From Blastopirellula sediminis (lineage in GTDB: Bacteria; Planctomycetota; Planctomycetia; Pirellulales; Pirellulaceae), in NCBI RefSeq assembly GCF_020966755.1, contig NZ_JAJKFT010000010.1, positions 3,002,720 through 3,066,719 of the forward strand: a DNA stretch of 64,000 nucleotides. Reading direction: 5' to 3'. Shown one piece after another: positions 57,374 to 64,000 of the stretch. The stretch's first letter is position 1. Each line of letters opens with the position of its first letter. Below the pieces are notes generated by a model. The model ran no database searches and had not been told where the DNA came from. It saw only the letters and a program-made list of their open reading frames with translations. Position numbers and translations under genes: made by a program.

Positions 57374-57859
57374 ATGTCGCAGCTCGCATCTTTCGTTTCC
57401 GATACTCCCCGCTTCGTGCGGCATTTGCTCGATTCGTATCGACGCTGGGTCGGCGTTGAGCTGATGGAGCGGAGTGGAGATGAACGACAAGACCTGGAGC
57501 TTCTCTTCGCGCTGCCGGTGGTGGTCGTTTCGCATGGCGCCGAGGCCGATCCGATCTTCAAGTTCGGCAATCAGACGGCGCTGAACCTGTGGGAACTTGA
57601 GCTCGACGCATTCTTAAAGATGCCGTCGCGACTAACGGCCGAACCGATGCATCGGGATGAGCGTGCCCGCTTGCTGGCGCGGACCGAGCGCGACGGCTAC
57701 GTCGACGACTATCGCGGCGTCCGCATCTCGAGTCAGGGACGCCGCTTTTACATCGAACAAGCGACCATTTGGAACGTGGTCGACGACGCCGGCGACTACA
57801 TTGGCCAAGCGGCGACGTTTGATCACTGGACGTTTCTCGCCGCAGGAGAAACGCCCTAG
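57374..57859 (+). CDS. MEKHLA domain protein
   Basis: A 161-residue soluble PAS-like protein of the MEKHLA family. The hallmark sequence is LLFALPVVVVSHGAEADPIF, then FGNQTALNLWE, MPSRLTAEPMHRDERARLL, VDDYRGVRISSQGRRFYIE and GQAATFDHW. MEKHLA proteins occur as single domains in cyanobacteria and planctomycetes and as C-terminal domains in plants; no biochemical role is firmly established. ATG 57374 is preferred over ATG 57329. Its stop codon overlaps that of the convergent lipoprotein gene by 4 bases. Confidence 0.85.
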   Translation: MSQLASFVSDTPRFVRHLLDSYRRWVGVELMERSGDERQDLELLFALPVVVVSHGAEADPIFKFGNQTALNLWELELDAFLKMPSRLTAEPMHRDERARLLARTERDGYVDDYRGVRISSQGRRFYIEQATIWNVVDDAGDYIGQAATFDHWTFLAAGETP

Positions 57860-58776
57860 CCCGAGATCGATACCTTCGCCGGCTCCTGTTTCGGCAGCGG
57901 CTGCGATTCTTTCTTTTCGGTCGTTTGCGTCATGGGAGGAGCGGCGGTCGTCTCTTCCTTGTAGCCGACCAGATCGGCTTCCTTCTTCGCGTCAGTCATC
58001 GGCGTCTCCGTTTCGTCCGCTTCTTCCGACTCGCCATCGGCCAGTTGAGCGCGGAAGTCATACGGAGCGTCGTATTCGACCTGAATCTGGTTCTCTTCTT
58101 CCTTGTGGAACGGATTGGGAAGACTGATCTTCGAACCAGCGAACTGCGTCCGGTCGTAGATGTTGCCTCCCTGGAAGGGACCAGCGCCCAGCAGCCAGGT
58201 GTCGCGAGCGGTTCCCAACGATTGAGCGATGCCCGATTGCCAGACTGGCGCACGCGATTCGCGATGATAGGCGAAGAGCGCGATCTTGGCGCCGCCGATC
58301 GTGTTGCTCTTTTTGGCGAAAGCGATTTCCGGAATGGTCGGTACGACAGGCGCTGCCGGAATCAGCGAAGCTGCGGAACTAACCGCGTTGTTTGACGGAA
58401 TGCCGTAGGTGACGGTATGTCCTTCGGTTCCCAGCGCGCCGATTCGCGCTTCGACCACAAAGTCGGCTTCGTCCGCTTTGTCTTGCAGCAGGCAACCCGC
58501 GGCGTTCATCTGCTGACGAATGGCGCTGGTGATGTACTCGGCATTGACGAACCCGGCGCCTTTGACGTTTTGCAGGTAGCGCGGGTCAAGGTAGACCTTC
58601 TCGCCGCGTAGCGGCTGAAAGTCGATATCGGCGATCGCCTCGTCGACGGCATGCGAGCTGACGAGCTGCTCGGTTAGCGTCCGATTGGAGGTGGTTCCGC
58701 AGCCGGCTGCTAGTAGCAGGCCGACCACGATCGCGCAGCGGCGGGCTGCGGCGTGAAGTTGGATACAGGCGGCCAT
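57856..58776 (-). CDS. Planctomycete lipoprotein (DUF6655-like)
   Basis: A 306-residue lipoprotein. The signal MAACIQLHAAARRCAIVVGL ends in LLAAGC (Cys near residue 25). The mature N-terminal part (NRTLTEQLVSSHAVDEAIAD, then GFVNAEYITSAIRQQMNAAG) and the following EGHTVTYGIPSNN block are typical of a conserved planctomycete lipoprotein group; the match to DUF6655 is from memory and unverified. The last 60 residues are acidic and Pro-rich. ATG 58776 gives the lipobox. Probably an envelope protein; function unknown. Confidence 0.75.
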   Translation of the reverse strand: MAACIQLHAAARRCAIVVGLLLAAGCGTTSNRTLTEQLVSSHAVDEAIADIDFQPLRGEKVYLDPRYLQNVKGAGFVNAEYITSAIRQQMNAAGCLLQDKADEADFVVEARIGALGTEGHTVTYGIPSNNAVSSAASLIPAAPVVPTIPEIAFAKKSNTIGGAKIALFAYHRESRAPVWQSGIAQSLGTARDTWLLGAGPFQGGNIYDRTQFAGSKISLPNPFHKEEENQIQVEYDAPYDFRAQLADGESEEADETETPMTDAKKEADLVGYKEETTAAPPMTQTTEKKESQPLPKQEPAKVSISG

Positions 58777-58991
58777 TGCGTCTTGCGTGTCATGGGTGTT
58801 GGAAGGAAGTTGGGCGGGATAGTTGGTAGGAGAGGCAGAGCGGTCTTCCACCAGGGAACGTTGATGCCTCGGATGCGAACTATAGGAAAAGGAAAAGAAC
58901 CGCGAAACCGCAATTTTGTGAAGATATCACGCGAAATAGAGGACCTTACGCGGCGCTGACTGCCTGTCGCTGCTGGAGACGCCGACTTATA

Positions 58992-60029
58992 ATGAACCGC
59001 TTGTCTCCCAATGCCCCCTTTTTTCTAGCGTGTGCCGAAAACGTGGCGACCGTTTCTGCTGAACCTACGTGGCTTCCCTATTTTCAGCTGTTTCGGCTGC
59101 CGAACGTCTTTACGGCCTGGGCCGACATCCTGGCCGGCTTCCTGGCGGTCACGCAATTTTCCACCGATACGGCCAGTTTGACCCCGTGGCCGGTCTTTTT
59201 GTGCCTGATTACGGCCTCGAGCCTGATTTACTCGGCCGGAATGGCCCTGAACGACTATTACGACCTGGAGCAGGATCGCCGCGAACGCCCCCAGCGTCCG
59301 CTGCCCTCGGGCCGGGTTTCGCCCCGGTTGGCCGCCTGGCTCGGCTACCAGTTCTTGCTGGTCGGCGTAGTGCTAGCGGCGATTGCGGGCTACCTCTACT
59401 CGGACGTCGCACTTCCCTGGCGTGGGGGCGCTGTCGCTGTGGCCCTGGTCGCGTCGGTCCTGTTGTATGACGCCGCTCTCAAATCGACTGTTTTTGGCGC
59501 CGTGGCGATGGGAGCGTGCCGGTTTTTCAATTTGTTGCTGGGGATGAGCCTGGCCGGACAGCTGCCGGACGCCGGGTTTTCGCTGATCGGTTACGATATG
59601 GGTCAGTTGGCGTTCGCCGGCGGAATCGGCGTCTACATCGCCGGCGTCACCTGGTTCGCCCGGACCGAAGCGAAGGAAAGCTCTCGTCCGATGCTGATCT
59701 TTGGATTCGTCGTGCTGGTGATTGGGCTGGGGTTGTTCGTCGCGTCGCCGCTGTTGGGCTCGTCCGTCGTCAAGCTGCGGTCGATGCAGATGGTCGGGTG
59801 GTGCGGCCTGATGACGCTGATTGCGATCTCGATTCTTCGCCGCTGCATCATCGCCATTGCCGACCCTTCCCCTGGCAATGTACAAGTGGCGGTGAAGCAG
59901 GCGTTGCTGTCGTTGATCACTTTGAACGCGGGATTCGTATTGGGAGTTTGCGGCGCCTTTTGGGCGGTGATCGTCGCCCTGTTGATCGCACCGATGCTGC
60001 TGCTGGGCCGCTGGGTTTATTCGACCTAA
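58992..60029 (+). CDS. UbiA-family prenyltransferase (EboC-like)
   Basis: A 345-residue polytopic enzyme with about eight membrane segments. The prenyl-diphosphate-binding Asp motif NDYYDLEQDRRERPQRPLPSG is near residue 88, and a second conserved segment near 158 is LLYDAALKSTVFG. UbiA enzymes attach isoprenoid chains to acceptors in the membrane. The next two genes encode the same enzyme types as EboE and EboF, so this is the EboC-like member. The ATG at 58992 overlaps a consensus TATAAT (58988-58993); the GTG at 59043 may be the true start, giving MATVSAEPTWLPYFQLFRLP. Confidence 0.88.
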   Translation: MNRLSPNAPFFLACAENVATVSAEPTWLPYFQLFRLPNVFTAWADILAGFLAVTQFSTDTASLTPWPVFLCLITASSLIYSAGMALNDYYDLEQDRRERPQRPLPSGRVSPRLAAWLGYQFLLVGVVLAAIAGYLYSDVALPWRGGAVAVALVASVLLYDAALKSTVFGAVAMGACRFFNLLLGMSLAGQLPDAGFSLIGYDMGQLAFAGGIGVYIAGVTWFARTEAKESSRPMLIFGFVVLVIGLGLFVASPLLGSSVVKLRSMQMVGWCGLMTLIAISILRRCIIAIADPSPGNVQVAVKQALLSLITLNAGFVLGVCGAFWAVIVALLIAPMLLLGRWVYST

Positions 60030-60091
60030 ACTAAGAGAAGACGATCGCCGGGCGACTTTGGCAAGGGAAACGTCGACGCGATGCAGATGAG

Positions 60092-60940
60092 ATGAGCATG
60101 CGGATTGGCTACAACACGAACGGCTTCGCCCATCACGACCCGCTCGACGCGGTCGATGTGCTGGCCGATCTCGGTTACGAAAGCGTCGCGATCACCGTCG
60201 ACCACGGAACGCTGACGCCGTTCGGCAATACGTACATGGCCGATCGTCAGGCCGATCATCTTGCCGCGCTGCTCGCCGAAAAGAAGATGGCCTGCGTCAT
60301 TGAATCTGGCGCCCGCTTCCTGCTCGATCCGAAACGGAAGCATGAGCCGACCCTGGTCTCTCCGGCCAAGCATGGCCGCCAACGCCGCTTTGAGTTCATT
60401 CGCCACTGCATTGACGAAGCGGTCAAACTAAAGGCCGATTGCGTTTCGCTCTGGTCAGGCAAGCTGCTCGACGACGTCAATCCGACCATCGCGATGAAAC
60501 GCCTGGTCGAGGCGCTGCAGCCGGTGATCGAATATGCCGAACTGCAGCAGATGCCGCTTGGCTTTGAACCGGAGCCGGGCATGTTCATCGACACGATGGA
60601 CCGCTTCGCCGAACTGAGCGAGCAGATCGACTCACCGCTGTTCCAACTGACGCTCGACATCGGCCATTTGCAGTGCCAAGCCGAACTGCCGCTGGGAGAC
60701 GTGATTCGCGAGTGGGGACCCCGGATCGTCAACGTCCATATCGAAGACATGAAGCGCGGCGTTCACGAGCACTTGCCGTTCGGCGAAGGGGAAATCGACT
60801 TCGTCGAAGTGATCTCGGCCCTGCGTGACGCAAAGTACGCGCAAGGATTGCACGTCGAACTCAGCCGCCACAGCCACGAAGCTCCCACGATGGCCGCCCG
60901 CGCGATGGAATTTCTGCGGCCGCTCGTTCATCCTCAGTAA
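60092..60940 (+). CDS. TIM-barrel sugar phosphate isomerase/epimerase (EboE-like)
   Basis: A 282-residue xylose-isomerase-like TIM barrel starting MSMRIGYNTNGFAHHDPLDA. Metal-binding positions are visible in LGFEPEPGMFIDTM (Glu), LTLDIGHLQCQ (Asp, His), IVNVHIEDMKRGVHEHLPFG and GLHVELSRHSH. The reaction is unknown; relatives isomerise or epimerise sugars or process cyclitols. It lies between the UbiA-type and the phosphatase-type genes with gaps of 62 and 35 bases, which supports one operon. Confidence 0.88.
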   Translation: MSMRIGYNTNGFAHHDPLDAVDVLADLGYESVAITVDHGTLTPFGNTYMADRQADHLAALLAEKKMACVIESGARFLLDPKRKHEPTLVSPAKHGRQRRFEFIRHCIDEAVKLKADCVSLWSGKLLDDVNPTIAMKRLVEALQPVIEYAELQQMPLGFEPEPGMFIDTMDRFAELSEQIDSPLFQLTLDIGHLQCQAELPLGDVIREWGPRIVNVHIEDMKRGVHEHLPFGEGEIDFVEVISALRDAKYAQGLHVELSRHSHEAPTMAARAMEFLRPLVHPQ

Positions 60941-60975
60941 GCCACGCATCTCCAACCGGATAGAGACCGCTCGCC

Positions 60976-62301
60976 ATGCCTGACAACGTCGTTCTTCTTT
61001 CGCTCCCCGGCCTCGCTCCGCAAGATTTGGCTCACATGCCGCAAGTCTCGGCTCTGTTCGCCGAGGGGGATCGCGCTCCGCTGGCGGCCAGCTTTCCGGC
61101 GGTTACCTGGCCGGTGCAAGCGAACATGCTGACCGGACAACTGCCGGTCGATCACGGCGTGACCGCCAACGGTTTCTATTGGCGCGACAAAAAGCAGGTC
61201 GAAATGTGGACCGCCGGCAACGAGGCGATCCTGCAGCCGCAAATCTGGGACTTGCTGAAGCAGCACAATCCGGAGATCCGCACGTCCGCCTGGTTCCCGA
61301 TGCTCAGCAAACGCAGCGGCGCCGATTACGTCTGCATGCCGGCCCCGGTCCACAATCCGGACGGCAGCGAAACGATGTGGTGCTACACCAAGCCGAGCAA
61401 CTTGTACGGCGAACTGCTCAGTGAGATGGGAGCCGGCTTCCCGCTGCATCACTTCTGGGGACCGTTGGCCAACATCAAGTCGACCGCTTGGATCGCCGAC
61501 TCGGCTGCGTTTGTCGCCGAGAAGTTTCAGCCTCATTTCTCGTACATCTATCTGCCCCACCTCGATTACGCCGCCCAAAAGCTGGGACCTGACAGCGACG
61601 CTCACAAGCAAGCCGCCGCAGAGGTCGACGAAGTGATCGGCAAGTTGATCGGTCGGATGCGCGCGGCGCTCGGCGACGACACCCTCTTTTTGATCGCCAG
61701 CGAATATGTGATTGTCCCGGTCGATCATGTCAGCTATCCCAATCGCGTCTTGCGCGATGCAGGCCTCTTGCAGGTCGAGGTCAAGGAAGATGGCGAGCAT
61801 CTCGACTTGGAAAAGAGCGAAGCGTGGGCCCTGGTCGATCACCAGTTCTCGCACGTTTACGTCAAAGATGCGCAGCCGGAAGTGATCAGCCGCGTCAAAG
61901 AGCTGTTCCAAGGCGCCGAAGGAGTCGCCGAAGTGCTGGCCATGGAAGAACGGGGCAAGTACTTCATGAACCACGAAAGGGCAGGGGAGGTGATCCTCGT
62001 CTCGACCCCCAATAGCTGGCAAGCCTACTACTGGTGGAACGACGACGCCCTGGCGCCGGGCTTCGCTCGCAAGGTCGACATTCACAAGAAGCCAGGCTAC
62101 GACCCGGTCGAACTCCACTTCGACTTCGCCACCAAGAGCATCCCGCTCGACGCGACCCTGATCAAGGGTTCGCACGGCGCCCCGGTCGCGGCCGAATTCC
62201 AGCGGGGCGTCCTGCTGGCGAACCAAAAGGGGGTCTTCGCCGAAACTCCGCTCGCCGATACCGACGTTTGCGACATCGTTCTCCGCCAGTTCGGCGTGTA
62301 G
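60976..62301 (+). CDS. Alkaline-phosphatase-superfamily protein (EboF-like)
   Basis: A 441-residue member of the nucleotide pyrophosphatase/phosphodiesterase superfamily, starting MPDNVVLLSLPGLAPQDLAH. The nucleophile segment AASFPAVTWPVQANMLTGQ (Thr near residue 45) and DHGVTANGFYW are family-typical, as is LPHLDYAAQKLGPDSDAH. Where most members have the SDHG metal motif, here the text is ASEYVIVPVDHVSYPN, so the metal site is altered or differently formed. It closes the UbiA/TIM-barrel operon, followed by a terminator, consistent with an Ebo-type pathway. Confidence 0.85.
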   Translation: MPDNVVLLSLPGLAPQDLAHMPQVSALFAEGDRAPLAASFPAVTWPVQANMLTGQLPVDHGVTANGFYWRDKKQVEMWTAGNEAILQPQIWDLLKQHNPEIRTSAWFPMLSKRSGADYVCMPAPVHNPDGSETMWCYTKPSNLYGELLSEMGAGFPLHHFWGPLANIKSTAWIADSAAFVAEKFQPHFSYIYLPHLDYAAQKLGPDSDAHKQAAAEVDEVIGKLIGRMRAALGDDTLFLIASEYVIVPVDHVSYPNRVLRDAGLLQVEVKEDGEHLDLEKSEAWALVDHQFSHVYVKDAQPEVISRVKELFQGAEGVAEVLAMEERGKYFMNHERAGEVILVSTPNSWQAYYWWNDDALAPGFARKVDIHKKPGYDPVELHFDFATKSIPLDATLIKGSHGAPVAAEFQRGVLLANQKGVFAETPLADTDVCDIVLRQFGV

Positions 62302-62479: not shown

Positions 62480-64000
62480 GTGCCCCAAGAGTTCGAGAAA
62501 ACCTTTGAATTCCTCGCGCGATCCGGCAACGCGGCGGCGACGCCGGTGTTGATTGCCGCGCTGCGCAGCGAAGCGCTCGATATCCGCGAGTTCGCCTTCG
62601 ACGCGTTGCTGAAACGCTCGAGCGCCAAAGGGGAAGCGTATCTCTTCGAACATTGGCACGAACTCTCCGAAGCCTGGCGGCTGAAGATCAAGCAACAGAT
62701 GGGGGTGATGACGGCGATCTTGCGCGAGCAACTCCTTTCGCCGTCGCGACCCGACTGCGAAAAGGCGGCTGCGATTGCGTTGGAACTGGAAGACTTCGAC
62801 CTGGTGCGTTCGGTGACCACCGCCGCCGAGGATGCGAATAATCCAAATCGCGACGTCGCCGGACGCTGCCTGGTGTCGCTGATCGATCGGCTCCGCAAGC
62901 TGCTGGACGAAGCGACCGACGCCCGCAAACGCAACCTGGTGCTGTGGCGCGGCCGGGCGATGGAATCGCTTGACGATTCGATGCGTCGCTGCAGCACGCA
63001 CCAGTCGGACGAAATCGTCGAATCGTTCCTGATGCTGACCAGTCGCGAACATCCGATGTTCCGGCATCTGCTGGACGAGCCGAATTCGCAAGTTTACAAG
63101 CTGACCCTTTCGATCTTGAAACGGACGCTTCGTCCCGCGATCGTGCGGTTGATCCTCAGCGTCTTCAGCGAAACCGCTCCGTGTCCCACGCTCTTGGCCG
63201 CCGCCGCCTGGCGGACTGATCCGCCGTTCGTGGCGCAGCTGCTCGATACGTTCTCCAGCGGCATGAGCGAAGTCGAACTACGAAACATCAAGAAAATCGC
63301 CCGCGTCGGTTGGAGCCACGATCAGTGGGATCTGCTGCGCTCGCTGACCGGCCGCCAGCAAGAGACGGCGCTCCGCTTTTTAATCGCCAGCTCGCAAGAC
63401 CGCGACACGGTCTTCGGCGTGATCCATTTCTTCCTGACGCAAGGGAAGCCGGACGGACGCCTGGCCGCGATCGATTCGCTCGCCAAAGACCGGGGCGCCG
63501 TCGCCAGCCAGTTGGTCATTGATGCGACCAGCGACGAAGATCCGGAAGTCGCCGCCGCGGCGCTGCGGCAATTGCGGCATCGGGGAATTCCCGGTTCGCT
63601 TAAATACCTTCTCGCGCAGCTCGACAGCGAGCACGAAGTGGTCCGCGTCGCCGTCCGCGAGTCGCTCGAAGAATTCAGCTTCAGCAAATACCTCGCTGCG
63701 TTCGACCTGATGATGGACGATCGCCGCGAGACGACCGGACACCTCGTCCGCAAAATCGATACCCATTCGGATGAGTTGCTGGTCGCCGAACTCAACAGCG
63801 AGATGCAGTCGCGCCGCCGCCGTGCGATCGAAGTGGTCGAATGCCTCGGCATTGCCGAGCAGATGCAAGGACCGCTGCTGAACCTGCTAAAGTGCGACGA
63901 CTATCTGATCCGCGTCGCGGCCGCCAACGCCTTAACCAACTGCAACAGCGACGAAGCGATCGCCGGGCTGCGGGAAGCGCTGCTCGATCGGAACGTCAGC
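62480..64000 (+). CDS. HEAT-repeat protein, partial at window end
   Basis: An open frame of at least 507 residues runs to the window edge. It is helical with many HEAT-like repeats (TPVLIAALRSEALDIREFAF, LVIDATSDEDPEVAAAALRQ, LRHRGIPGSLKYLLAQLDSE, then LLNLLKCDDYLIRVAAANAL). HEAT arrays act as protein-binding scaffolds; no catalytic motif is seen. The start at GTG 62480 is tentative, as no ATG or strong ribosome-binding site is evident and the frame is open some way upstream. It is separated from the trio by a terminator and is probably its own transcription unit. Confidence 0.75.
   Translation, partial: MPQEFEKTFEFLARSGNAAATPVLIAALRSEALDIREFAFDALLKRSSAKGEAYLFEHWHELSEAWRLKIKQQMGVMTAILREQLLSPSRPDCEKAAAIALELEDFDLVRSVTTAAEDANNPNRDVAGRCLVSLIDRLRKLLDEATDARKRNLVLWRGRAMESLDDSMRRCSTHQSDEIVESFLMLTSREHPMFRHLLDEPNSQVYKLTLSILKRTLRPAIVRLILSVFSETAPCPTLLAAAAWRTDPPFVAQLLDTFSSGMSEVELRNIKKIARVGWSHDQWDLLRSLTGRQQETALRFLIASSQDRDTVFGVIHFFLTQGKPDGRLAAIDSLAKDRGAVASQLVIDATSDEDPEVAAAALRQLRHRGIPGSLKYLLAQLDSEHEVVRVAVRESLEEFSFSKYLAAFDLMMDDRRETTGHLVRKIDTHSDELLVAELNSEMQSRRRRAIEVVECLGIAEQMQGPLLNLLKCDDYLIRVAAANALTNCNSDEAIAGLREALLDRNVS

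Follow-up and report, generated by a model that had tools for sequence, protein, structure and literature searches.

The ebo genes are widespread, and Nostoc requires them to export the scytonemin precursor. The system was defined by Yurchenko 2016 (PMC5133447), the available text of which reports that ebo genes are unclustered in three planctomycetes, that EboD is missing in two of the three, and that EboA and EboG are mutually exclusive. According to the available text of Klicki 2018 (PMC6282210), ebo deletions hold the scytonemin monomer in the cytoplasm of Nostoc; metabolite translocation was proposed as the role of ebo in this organism, the only one in which export was shown to be blocked on ebo loss. 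Here we describe three consecutive genes in a 64,000-nucleotide stretch of Blastopirellula sediminis DNA (the window; positions 3,002,720 to 3,066,719 of contig NZ_JAJKFT010000010.1, or C10, of assembly GCF_020966755.1). Gene 1 encodes an EboC-like prenyltransferase of the UbiA superfamily, gene 2 a xylose-isomerase-like TIM barrel that we call TIM2, and gene 3 a divergent EboF-type protein of the alkaline phosphatase superfamily that we call EboF1.

The presumed product of EboD is a C7 cyclitol formed out of sedoheptulose 7-phosphate, and Ino1 converts glucose 6-phosphate to myo-inositol 3-phosphate. We found that Planctomycetia genomes generally contain either a second sugar-phosphate cyclase, identified as EboD wherever checked, or the pair Ino1 and TIM2. 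The B. sediminis trio very probably belongs to an ebo pathway, and our favored interpretation, which we consider probable, is that Ino1 and TIM2 replace EboD in this variant and that the prenylated cyclitol is consequently derived from inositol. Genomes and loci are identified below by our own G and L numbers, with G000 being the source genome.

Ino1 and TIM2 occur together and nearly exclude EboD

The same set of 148 Planctomycetia genomes was searched for every part of the pathway. Ino1 was detected in 103 genomes and TIM2, whose presence was set by hand at more than about 180 bits, in 101. Both were present in 100 genomes, Ino1 alone in three, TIM2 alone in one, and neither in 44. A second cyclase was found in 40 genomes, comprising 39 of the 45 that lack Ino1 and one of the 103 that contain it, and exactly one of Ino1 and the second cyclase was present in 141 of the 148. 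When the states were shuffled within families, six of which hold both states, at most 121 genomes contained exactly one, and 141 was reached in none of 20,000 shuffles. The second cyclase was EboD in all seven cases checked, which came from four genera and showed 44–51% identity (315–347 bits) to EboD of Aureibacter or Deinococcus. Two of these seven proteins were scanned and scored 505 and 494 bits against NF004852 (cut-off 333), with AroB scores of 222 and 212 bits that were under the cut-off.

A second exchange involved EboE, which was above its cut-off in 61 genomes, and TIM-A, another TIM barrel that lies directly before EboC in many genomes and that was called in 82. The two were never called together, and neither was called in five genomes (G055, G082, G111, G127 and G147), where TIM-A is possible. 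As TIM-A was called from weak EboE-profile matches (the lowest at 19 bits, close to the limit) and from listed second TIM rows, this exclusion rests on the matches listed, and EboE genomes could contain a weak TIM-A that escaped; no strong TIM-A (150 bits) was found in the 40 EboE genomes among the 80 EboC neighborhoods described below. Ino1 and TIM2 were present in 32 of the EboE genomes and EboD in 26, the corresponding numbers for TIM-A genomes being 65 and 13. The two exchanges are largely independent. Since Ino1 and TIM2 coexist with EboE as well as with TIM-A, TIM2 is not an EboE substitute.

EboC was found in 147 of the 148 genomes, including all 136 of good quality, and an EboF-type protein at E 1e-20 was found in 145. 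EboF1 was present in 41 genomes (a count entered by hand). EboA was above its cut-off in 22 genomes, all of which are in the EboE set. The best reading of the census is that the ebo pathway is near-universal in Planctomycetia.

TIM2 is a likely isomerase or epimerase that accompanies Ino1

Gene 2 matched AP_endonuc_2 (PF01261) with 138 bits, above the cut-off. Residues E159, D189, H216 and E256, which we take to occupy the usual metal ligand positions of the superfamily, were invariant in all 39 aligned sequences. The AlphaFold model (predicted local distance difference test score, pLDDT, 94.3) was closest to the folds of UlaE and D-tagatose 3-epimerase, with IolI also among the matches (template modelling (TM) scores 0.76–0.82, 16–20% identity). 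The invariant residues together with the UlaE-type fold make it likely that TIM2 is an active metal-dependent isomerase or epimerase, and we propose that it is an Ino1-linked cyclitol isomerase/epimerase.

In a tree of 41 barrels, planctomycete TIM2 fell on one side, with support of 100, together with both Streptomyces barrels and those of Gemmatirosa, Roseomonas, Hymenobacter and Methylobacterium. Neither TIM-A nor any of the haloarchaeal barrels belonged to this side. TIM2 is 44% identical to the barrel of the Streptomyces Ino1-type ebo cluster. All six non-planctomycete members of the TIM2 clade that were examined lie near Ino1, three of them in ebo clusters (Streptomyces and Gemmatirosa) and three at non-ebo loci in Roseomonas, Hymenobacter and Methylobacterium, where the distance to Ino1 is within about 6 kb and no ebo genes were found. 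Thus, TIM2 accompanies Ino1 even outside ebo. By annotation, the Roseomonas and Hymenobacter loci encode Ino1, a Gfo/Idh/MocA oxidoreductase, YcaO, the TIM2 relative and a PIG-L deacetylase; the Roseomonas version also has a glycosyltransferase 4, and the parts of this cluster are mycothiol-like. The Methylobacterium stretch, which is unannotated, contains Ino1 and the TIM2 relative. A literature search on clusters of the Ino1-YcaO-PIG-L type returned nothing.

We also compared 15 clusters across phyla, which were stretches rather than whole genomes, taken from annotated plasmids and Gemmatirosa and chosen among 52 plasmid records that were otherwise mostly Streptomyces. Eight contained EboD without Ino1 (two Deinococcus, Aureibacter, Mycetohabitans, Salipiger, Roseivivax, Azospirillum and Ketogulonicigenium), six contained Ino1 without EboD (two Streptomyces, Gemmatirosa, Halobaculum, Halocatena and Natronococcus), and the Haladaptatus stretch contained neither.

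Gene neighborhoods were read around EboC and around TIM2, with parts identified by tblastn using named proteins; clustering of open reading frames (ORFs) was dropped, having been spoiled by long antisense ORFs. Among 80 EboC neighborhoods, TIM2 lay within 5 kb of EboC in 17 of the 42 genomes having TIM2, Ino1 in 14 of 42, TIM-A in 30 of 39 and EboE in none of 40. An EboF1-like protein lay within the same distance in 17 neighborhoods, three of these proteins being of a third class, below 44%. Scanning named genomes with a TIM2 alignment gave 563 confirmed loci, of which the best 80, 77 with planctomycete titles, were examined; matches below 80 bits were dropped (below 60 for EboC, with no floor for EboG). 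In 41 of these best 80 loci, TIM2 was preceded by EboC on the same strand (in L243 with EboF between). The stretches included Ino1 in seven cases and TIM-A in 22; EboD and EboE were absent from all of them.

Several observations weigh against replacement of EboD by Ino1 and TIM2. In the source genome, roughly 1 Mb separates Ino1 from the trio, and 37 of the best 80 TIM2 loci had no other ebo gene or Ino1 in the stretch examined. EboD was itself within 5 kb of EboC in none of 34 genomes of the 80 neighborhoods, and G065, G122 and G138, which contain EboE and EboD, have a weak, unassigned TIM barrel beside EboC, such that barrels adjacent to EboC are not confined to the Ino1 type. The haloarchaeal clusters with Ino1 have barrels outside the TIM2 clade, and no dehydrogenase that could obviously provide TIM2 with a ketone is seen in the ebo clusters that were read. 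Identification of EboD by sequence covers seven of the 40 genomes with a second cyclase. Seven genomes break the rule, G064 having both Ino1 and the second cyclase and G098, G102, G110, G111, G120 and G147 having neither (G111 and G147 are less than 90% complete). The EboC tree provided four independent pairs on supported branches (sign test p 0.25), a number too small to give the test any power. Finally, according to the available text of the Ubi-297 paper (PMC9235831), quinolines are farnesylated by EboC homologues in vitro, an activity that does not point to a cyclitol acceptor but may be promiscuity. The available text of Yurchenko 2016 (PMC5133447) supplies a point in favor of the replacement, in that actinobacterial EboA is fused to a xylose-isomerase-like domain.

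Some of these observations would be accounted for if Ino1 and TIM2 served a separate inositol pathway, leading to phosphatidylinositol, a mycothiol-like glycoside or a solute, with EboC and EboF1 working without a cyclitol partner and TIM2 lying beside EboC by convenience. The TIM2 relatives in Ino1-YcaO-PIG-L clusters without ebo genes, the distance of Ino1 from the trio and the loci in which TIM2 stands alone all speak for this explanation. However, it leaves the absence of EboD alongside Ino1 and TIM2 unexplained, as well as the presence of TIM2 inside the Streptomyces and Gemmatirosa ebo clusters. Moreover, no CDP-alcohol phosphatidyltransferase was present in the seven ORFs that were scanned among those around Ino1 of the source genome. 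We therefore regard a separate pathway as unlikely.

The remaining ebo genes are dispersed in the B. sediminis genome

The original prediction took the absence of EboA, EboB and EboD from the window as a sign of a reduced or rearranged pathway. A genome-wide search identified EboE with 439.9 bits against NF035939 (cut-off 250), outside the trio; the 20 kb read around it contained no further ebo genes. EboA scored 166.9 bits against the domain model NF035938 (cut-off 50) and 269 bits, under the cut-off of 320, against the full-length model NF035937. The 302-amino-acid (aa) TatD-like ORF directly after eboA is 73% identical to Aureibacter EboB and was assigned as EboB from this identity and its position rather than from an EboB profile; the eboA-eboB pair is at 2.90 Mb. 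EboD was not found anywhere in the genome, the only PF01761 gene being AroB (390 bits to the AroB family, cut-off 305), which is 31–32% identical to three reference EboD proteins (132–148 bits). Ino1 is at 2.07 Mb, and another PF01261 TIM barrel was observed near it. The eboA-eboB pair, eboE, Ino1 and the trio therefore constitute four separate loci, all on C10. Of EboA to EboF only EboD is missing, and the finding of EboA, EboB and EboE elsewhere shows that "reduced" was wrong: the ebo pathway of this organism is dispersed and altered, not cut down to three genes.

Gene 1 scored best among NCBIfam families with EboC, at 191 bits; as the cut-off is 250, it is not a formal member of the family. 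The second match was the SCO3242 family prenyltransferase (NF045897), likewise an enzyme of ebo clusters, at 150 bits, which also did not reach its cut-off of 260, and UbiA (PF01040) was matched above cut-off with 59 bits. Gene 1 retains the motif NDYYDLEQD (NDxxDxxxD) common to EboC of other phyla, and it is the only EboC-like protein among three UbiA-family genes in the genome, the other EboC-profile match being at 30 bits. A match of 61 bits to the GGGP geranylgeranyltransferase family (NF009521), together with near-universality in the class as expected of a membrane-lipid gene, would fit a generic lipid prenyltransferase operon, such as one for an archaeal-type ether lipid, in which the epimerase and phosphatase are unrelated and no connection to ebo exists. 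Such an operon is improbable, as EboC is by far the best family, EboA, EboB and EboE coexist in the genome, and gene 3 is of the EboF type.

Gene 3 matched Phosphodiest (PF01663) above cut-off with 161 bits and had no curated NCBIfam assignment (best match 14 bits). Its assignment as EboF comes from PF01663 and from identity to five reference EboF proteins of ebo clusters rather than from an EboF profile: 38–40% to those of Deinococcus, Mycetohabitans and Streptomyces, 35% to Halobaculum and 32% to Aureibacter. Because eleven other planctomycete EboF-type proteins are 41–57% identical to those references and constitute canonical EboF, we consider gene 3 to be a divergent form. Its AlphaFold model (pLDDT 93.3) was closest to phosphonoacetate hydrolase, ENPP6 and nucleotide pyrophosphatase/phosphodiesterase (NPP) folds, with TM scores of about 0.6. 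Alignment to 2gsn covered six of the seven metal/nucleophile positions of the NPP and phosphodiesterase (PDE) enzymes, whose roles as metal ligands we assume here. Four positions were changed (D to P, H to Q, D to E and H to Y), and EboF1 does not retain the seven-residue NPP/PDE set. Canonical EboF proteins carry most of the same changes, the first position being V rather than P, with L for Q in Halobaculum, which rules out a loss special to the trio locus; the altered metal site of the original prediction is real, but for the most part it characterizes the EboF family as a whole. Across several phyla, SEY or GEY replaces SDH in this family, with mostly Q for H, and V or P for D. As the usual NPP metal ligands are mostly missing, a standard two-metal phosphodiesterase is doubtful, and so is the phosphodiesterase label of the family. 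Residues D288, H289, H293, D368 and H370, which are invariant in 24 aligned sequences, may form another site.

The three genes had originally been read as EboC, EboE and EboF, a likeness that held for genes 1 and 3 and failed for gene 2, which scored 11.4 bits against the EboE profile (NF035939, cut-off 250; model length 379 compared with 282 aa) and cannot be EboE given the 440-bit EboE about 2 Mb away. Thus, even though the superfamilies and their order agree, a reduced EboC-EboE-EboF trio is highly improbable, since Ino1 and TIM2 also occur in genomes with EboE or TIM-A and since EboA and EboB are present.

Organization of the three-gene unit

As originally described, the window contains a UbiA prenyltransferase, a TIM barrel and an alkaline-phosphatase-superfamily protein, with all three Pfam matches above cut-off. 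The ORFs are co-directional and separated by 62 and 35 bases (Table 1). The upstream neighbor (57856–58851, − strand) is divergent, and the gap between it and gene 1 is likely the promoter region; the next long + strand ORF downstream begins at 62480. The first ~20 residues of the gene 1 ORF (58992–59063) were unmatched in most relatives, and GTG at 59043 may be the true start. As the EboC-TIM2-EboF1 order recurs in relatives such as Adhaeretor mobilis (L173), the arrangement is not due to chance.

Table 1. Location of the trio and of other features discussed in the text; coordinates without a prefix refer to the window.
Feature	Location	Strand	Basis
Gene 1, eboC-like UbiA-superfamily prenyltransferase, 345 aa	58992..60029	+	ORF, NCBIfam + Pfam
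Gene 2, TIM2, xylose-isomerase-like TIM barrel, 282 aa	60092..60940	+	ORF, Pfam
Gene 3, EboF1, divergent EboF-type alkaline-phosphatase-superfamily protein, 441 aa	60976..62301	+	ORF, Pfam
Putative promoter region of the three-gene unit, 140-base gap	58852..58991	+	read from sequence
EboE of the source genome	C10:1077734-1078858		NF035939
Ino1 of the source genome	C10:2071977		
Another PF01261 TIM barrel near Ino1 of the source genome, 331 aa	L116:5319-6314		130 bits
TIM barrel beside EboC (G065)	L053:10453-10995		25-28%
TIM barrel beside EboC (G138)	L058:10253-11011		25-28%
TIM barrel beside EboC (G122)	L151:10337-11161		25-28%
Gemmatirosa kalamazoonensis plasmid ebo cluster	L086:4074-11133		
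Non-ebo Ino1-YcaO-PIG-L clusters (Roseomonas, Hymenobacter)	L249:1476-10788, L250:2214-10915		annotation
Ino1 and TIM2 relative (Methylobacterium)	L251:2002-8810		

Two further arrangements were observed at other loci. In L243, from a metagenome-assembled genome titled Desulfosarcina, Ino1, TIM-A, EboC, EboF and TIM2 are in a row, reflecting either mislabelling of the bin or a transfer. Weak matches to Deinococcus-type EboG (41–56 bits) and clear Deinococcus-type EboB were found near EboC in L069, L077, L079, L129, L131, L154 and L164, which are from planctomycetes that use TIM-A instead of EboE.

Discussion

From the observed gene identities, dispersal, co-occurrence, near-exclusion and linkage we infer the catalytic steps, their order and the product. 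The trio would be the eboC-TIM2-eboF1 portion of a scattered ebo pathway. Ino1 would supply myo-inositol 3-phosphate from glucose 6-phosphate, taking the place of EboD together with TIM2, which would adjust an inositol-derived cyclitol or keto-cyclitol as a metal-dependent isomerase or epimerase. The ketone could be a keto intermediate released by Ino1 or come from another dehydrogenase. EboC would then prenylate the inositol-derived cyclitol in the membrane, and completion or chaperoning of the lipid would fall to EboF1, EboE, EboB and EboA. The lipid might function in the translocation of metabolites, the role put forward for ebo in Nostoc. The prenylated cyclitol-like molecule of the original prediction fits this scheme.

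A broader model is more tentative. The ebo product could be a prenylated cyclitol carrier lipid with an interchangeable head group, either a C7 cyclitol (EboD) or inositol (Ino1 and TIM2), that was swapped repeatedly, with EboE/TIM-A and EboF/EboF1 also being swapped and EboC remaining constant. This lipid would be near-universal in Planctomycetia and would probably belong to the core components of the membrane, not to secondary metabolism. The presence of EboC in nearly every genome suggests a core lipid of the class, perhaps an overlooked one. The near-exclusive swap is also a strong genetic hint at the chemistry, namely a cyclitol head group that is possibly inositol-derived, and it opens the way to a search for the product with isotope-labelled inositol or glucose, both in Streptomyces and in planctomycetes that can be cultured. 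Neither PMC5133447 nor PMC6282210 mentions inositol in the available text. No published link between Ino1 and ebo was found in the literature searched, which excluded most subscription papers and all preprints, such that absence from print is unproven.

The TIM2 fold is that of L-xylulose-5-phosphate 3-epimerase (UlaE), D-tagatose 3-epimerase and IolI, from which TIM2 differs by its genomic link to Ino1. Relative to the ABCDEF-type ebo operon, the source genome has EboC- and EboF-type proteins in the trio and EboA, EboB and EboE elsewhere; it differs by the absence of EboD, the extra TIM2 between eboC and eboF, the dispersal of the genes and the divergent EboF1. Haloarchaeal plasmids (L088, L256, L257 and L260) carry ebo-like clusters with EboF, EboB, UbiA and two TIM barrels, and with Ino1 in three of the four. 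In the Ino1-type clusters of Halobaculum, Halocatena and Natronococcus, neither EboD nor EboE is present in the stretch, and the barrels, unlike TIM2, are on the TIM-A side of the tree. The Gemmatirosa kalamazoonensis plasmid cluster (EboE / EboG-EboB-EboF-EboC-Ino1-TIM2, with no EboD in the stretch) is the most compact inositol-type ebo cluster seen. It resembles the source genome in combining Ino1 and TIM2 with EboC and EboF, whereas it has EboG for EboA, a canonical EboF and clustered genes. The SCO3242-type Streptomyces cluster (Ino1-prenyltransferase-TIM-EboA-EboB-EboE-EboF) shares with the source genome Ino1 and a TIM2 relative instead of EboD, as well as EboA, EboB, EboE and EboF. It is organized as one operon rather than four loci, and the B. 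sediminis prenyltransferase fits EboC better than SCO3242.

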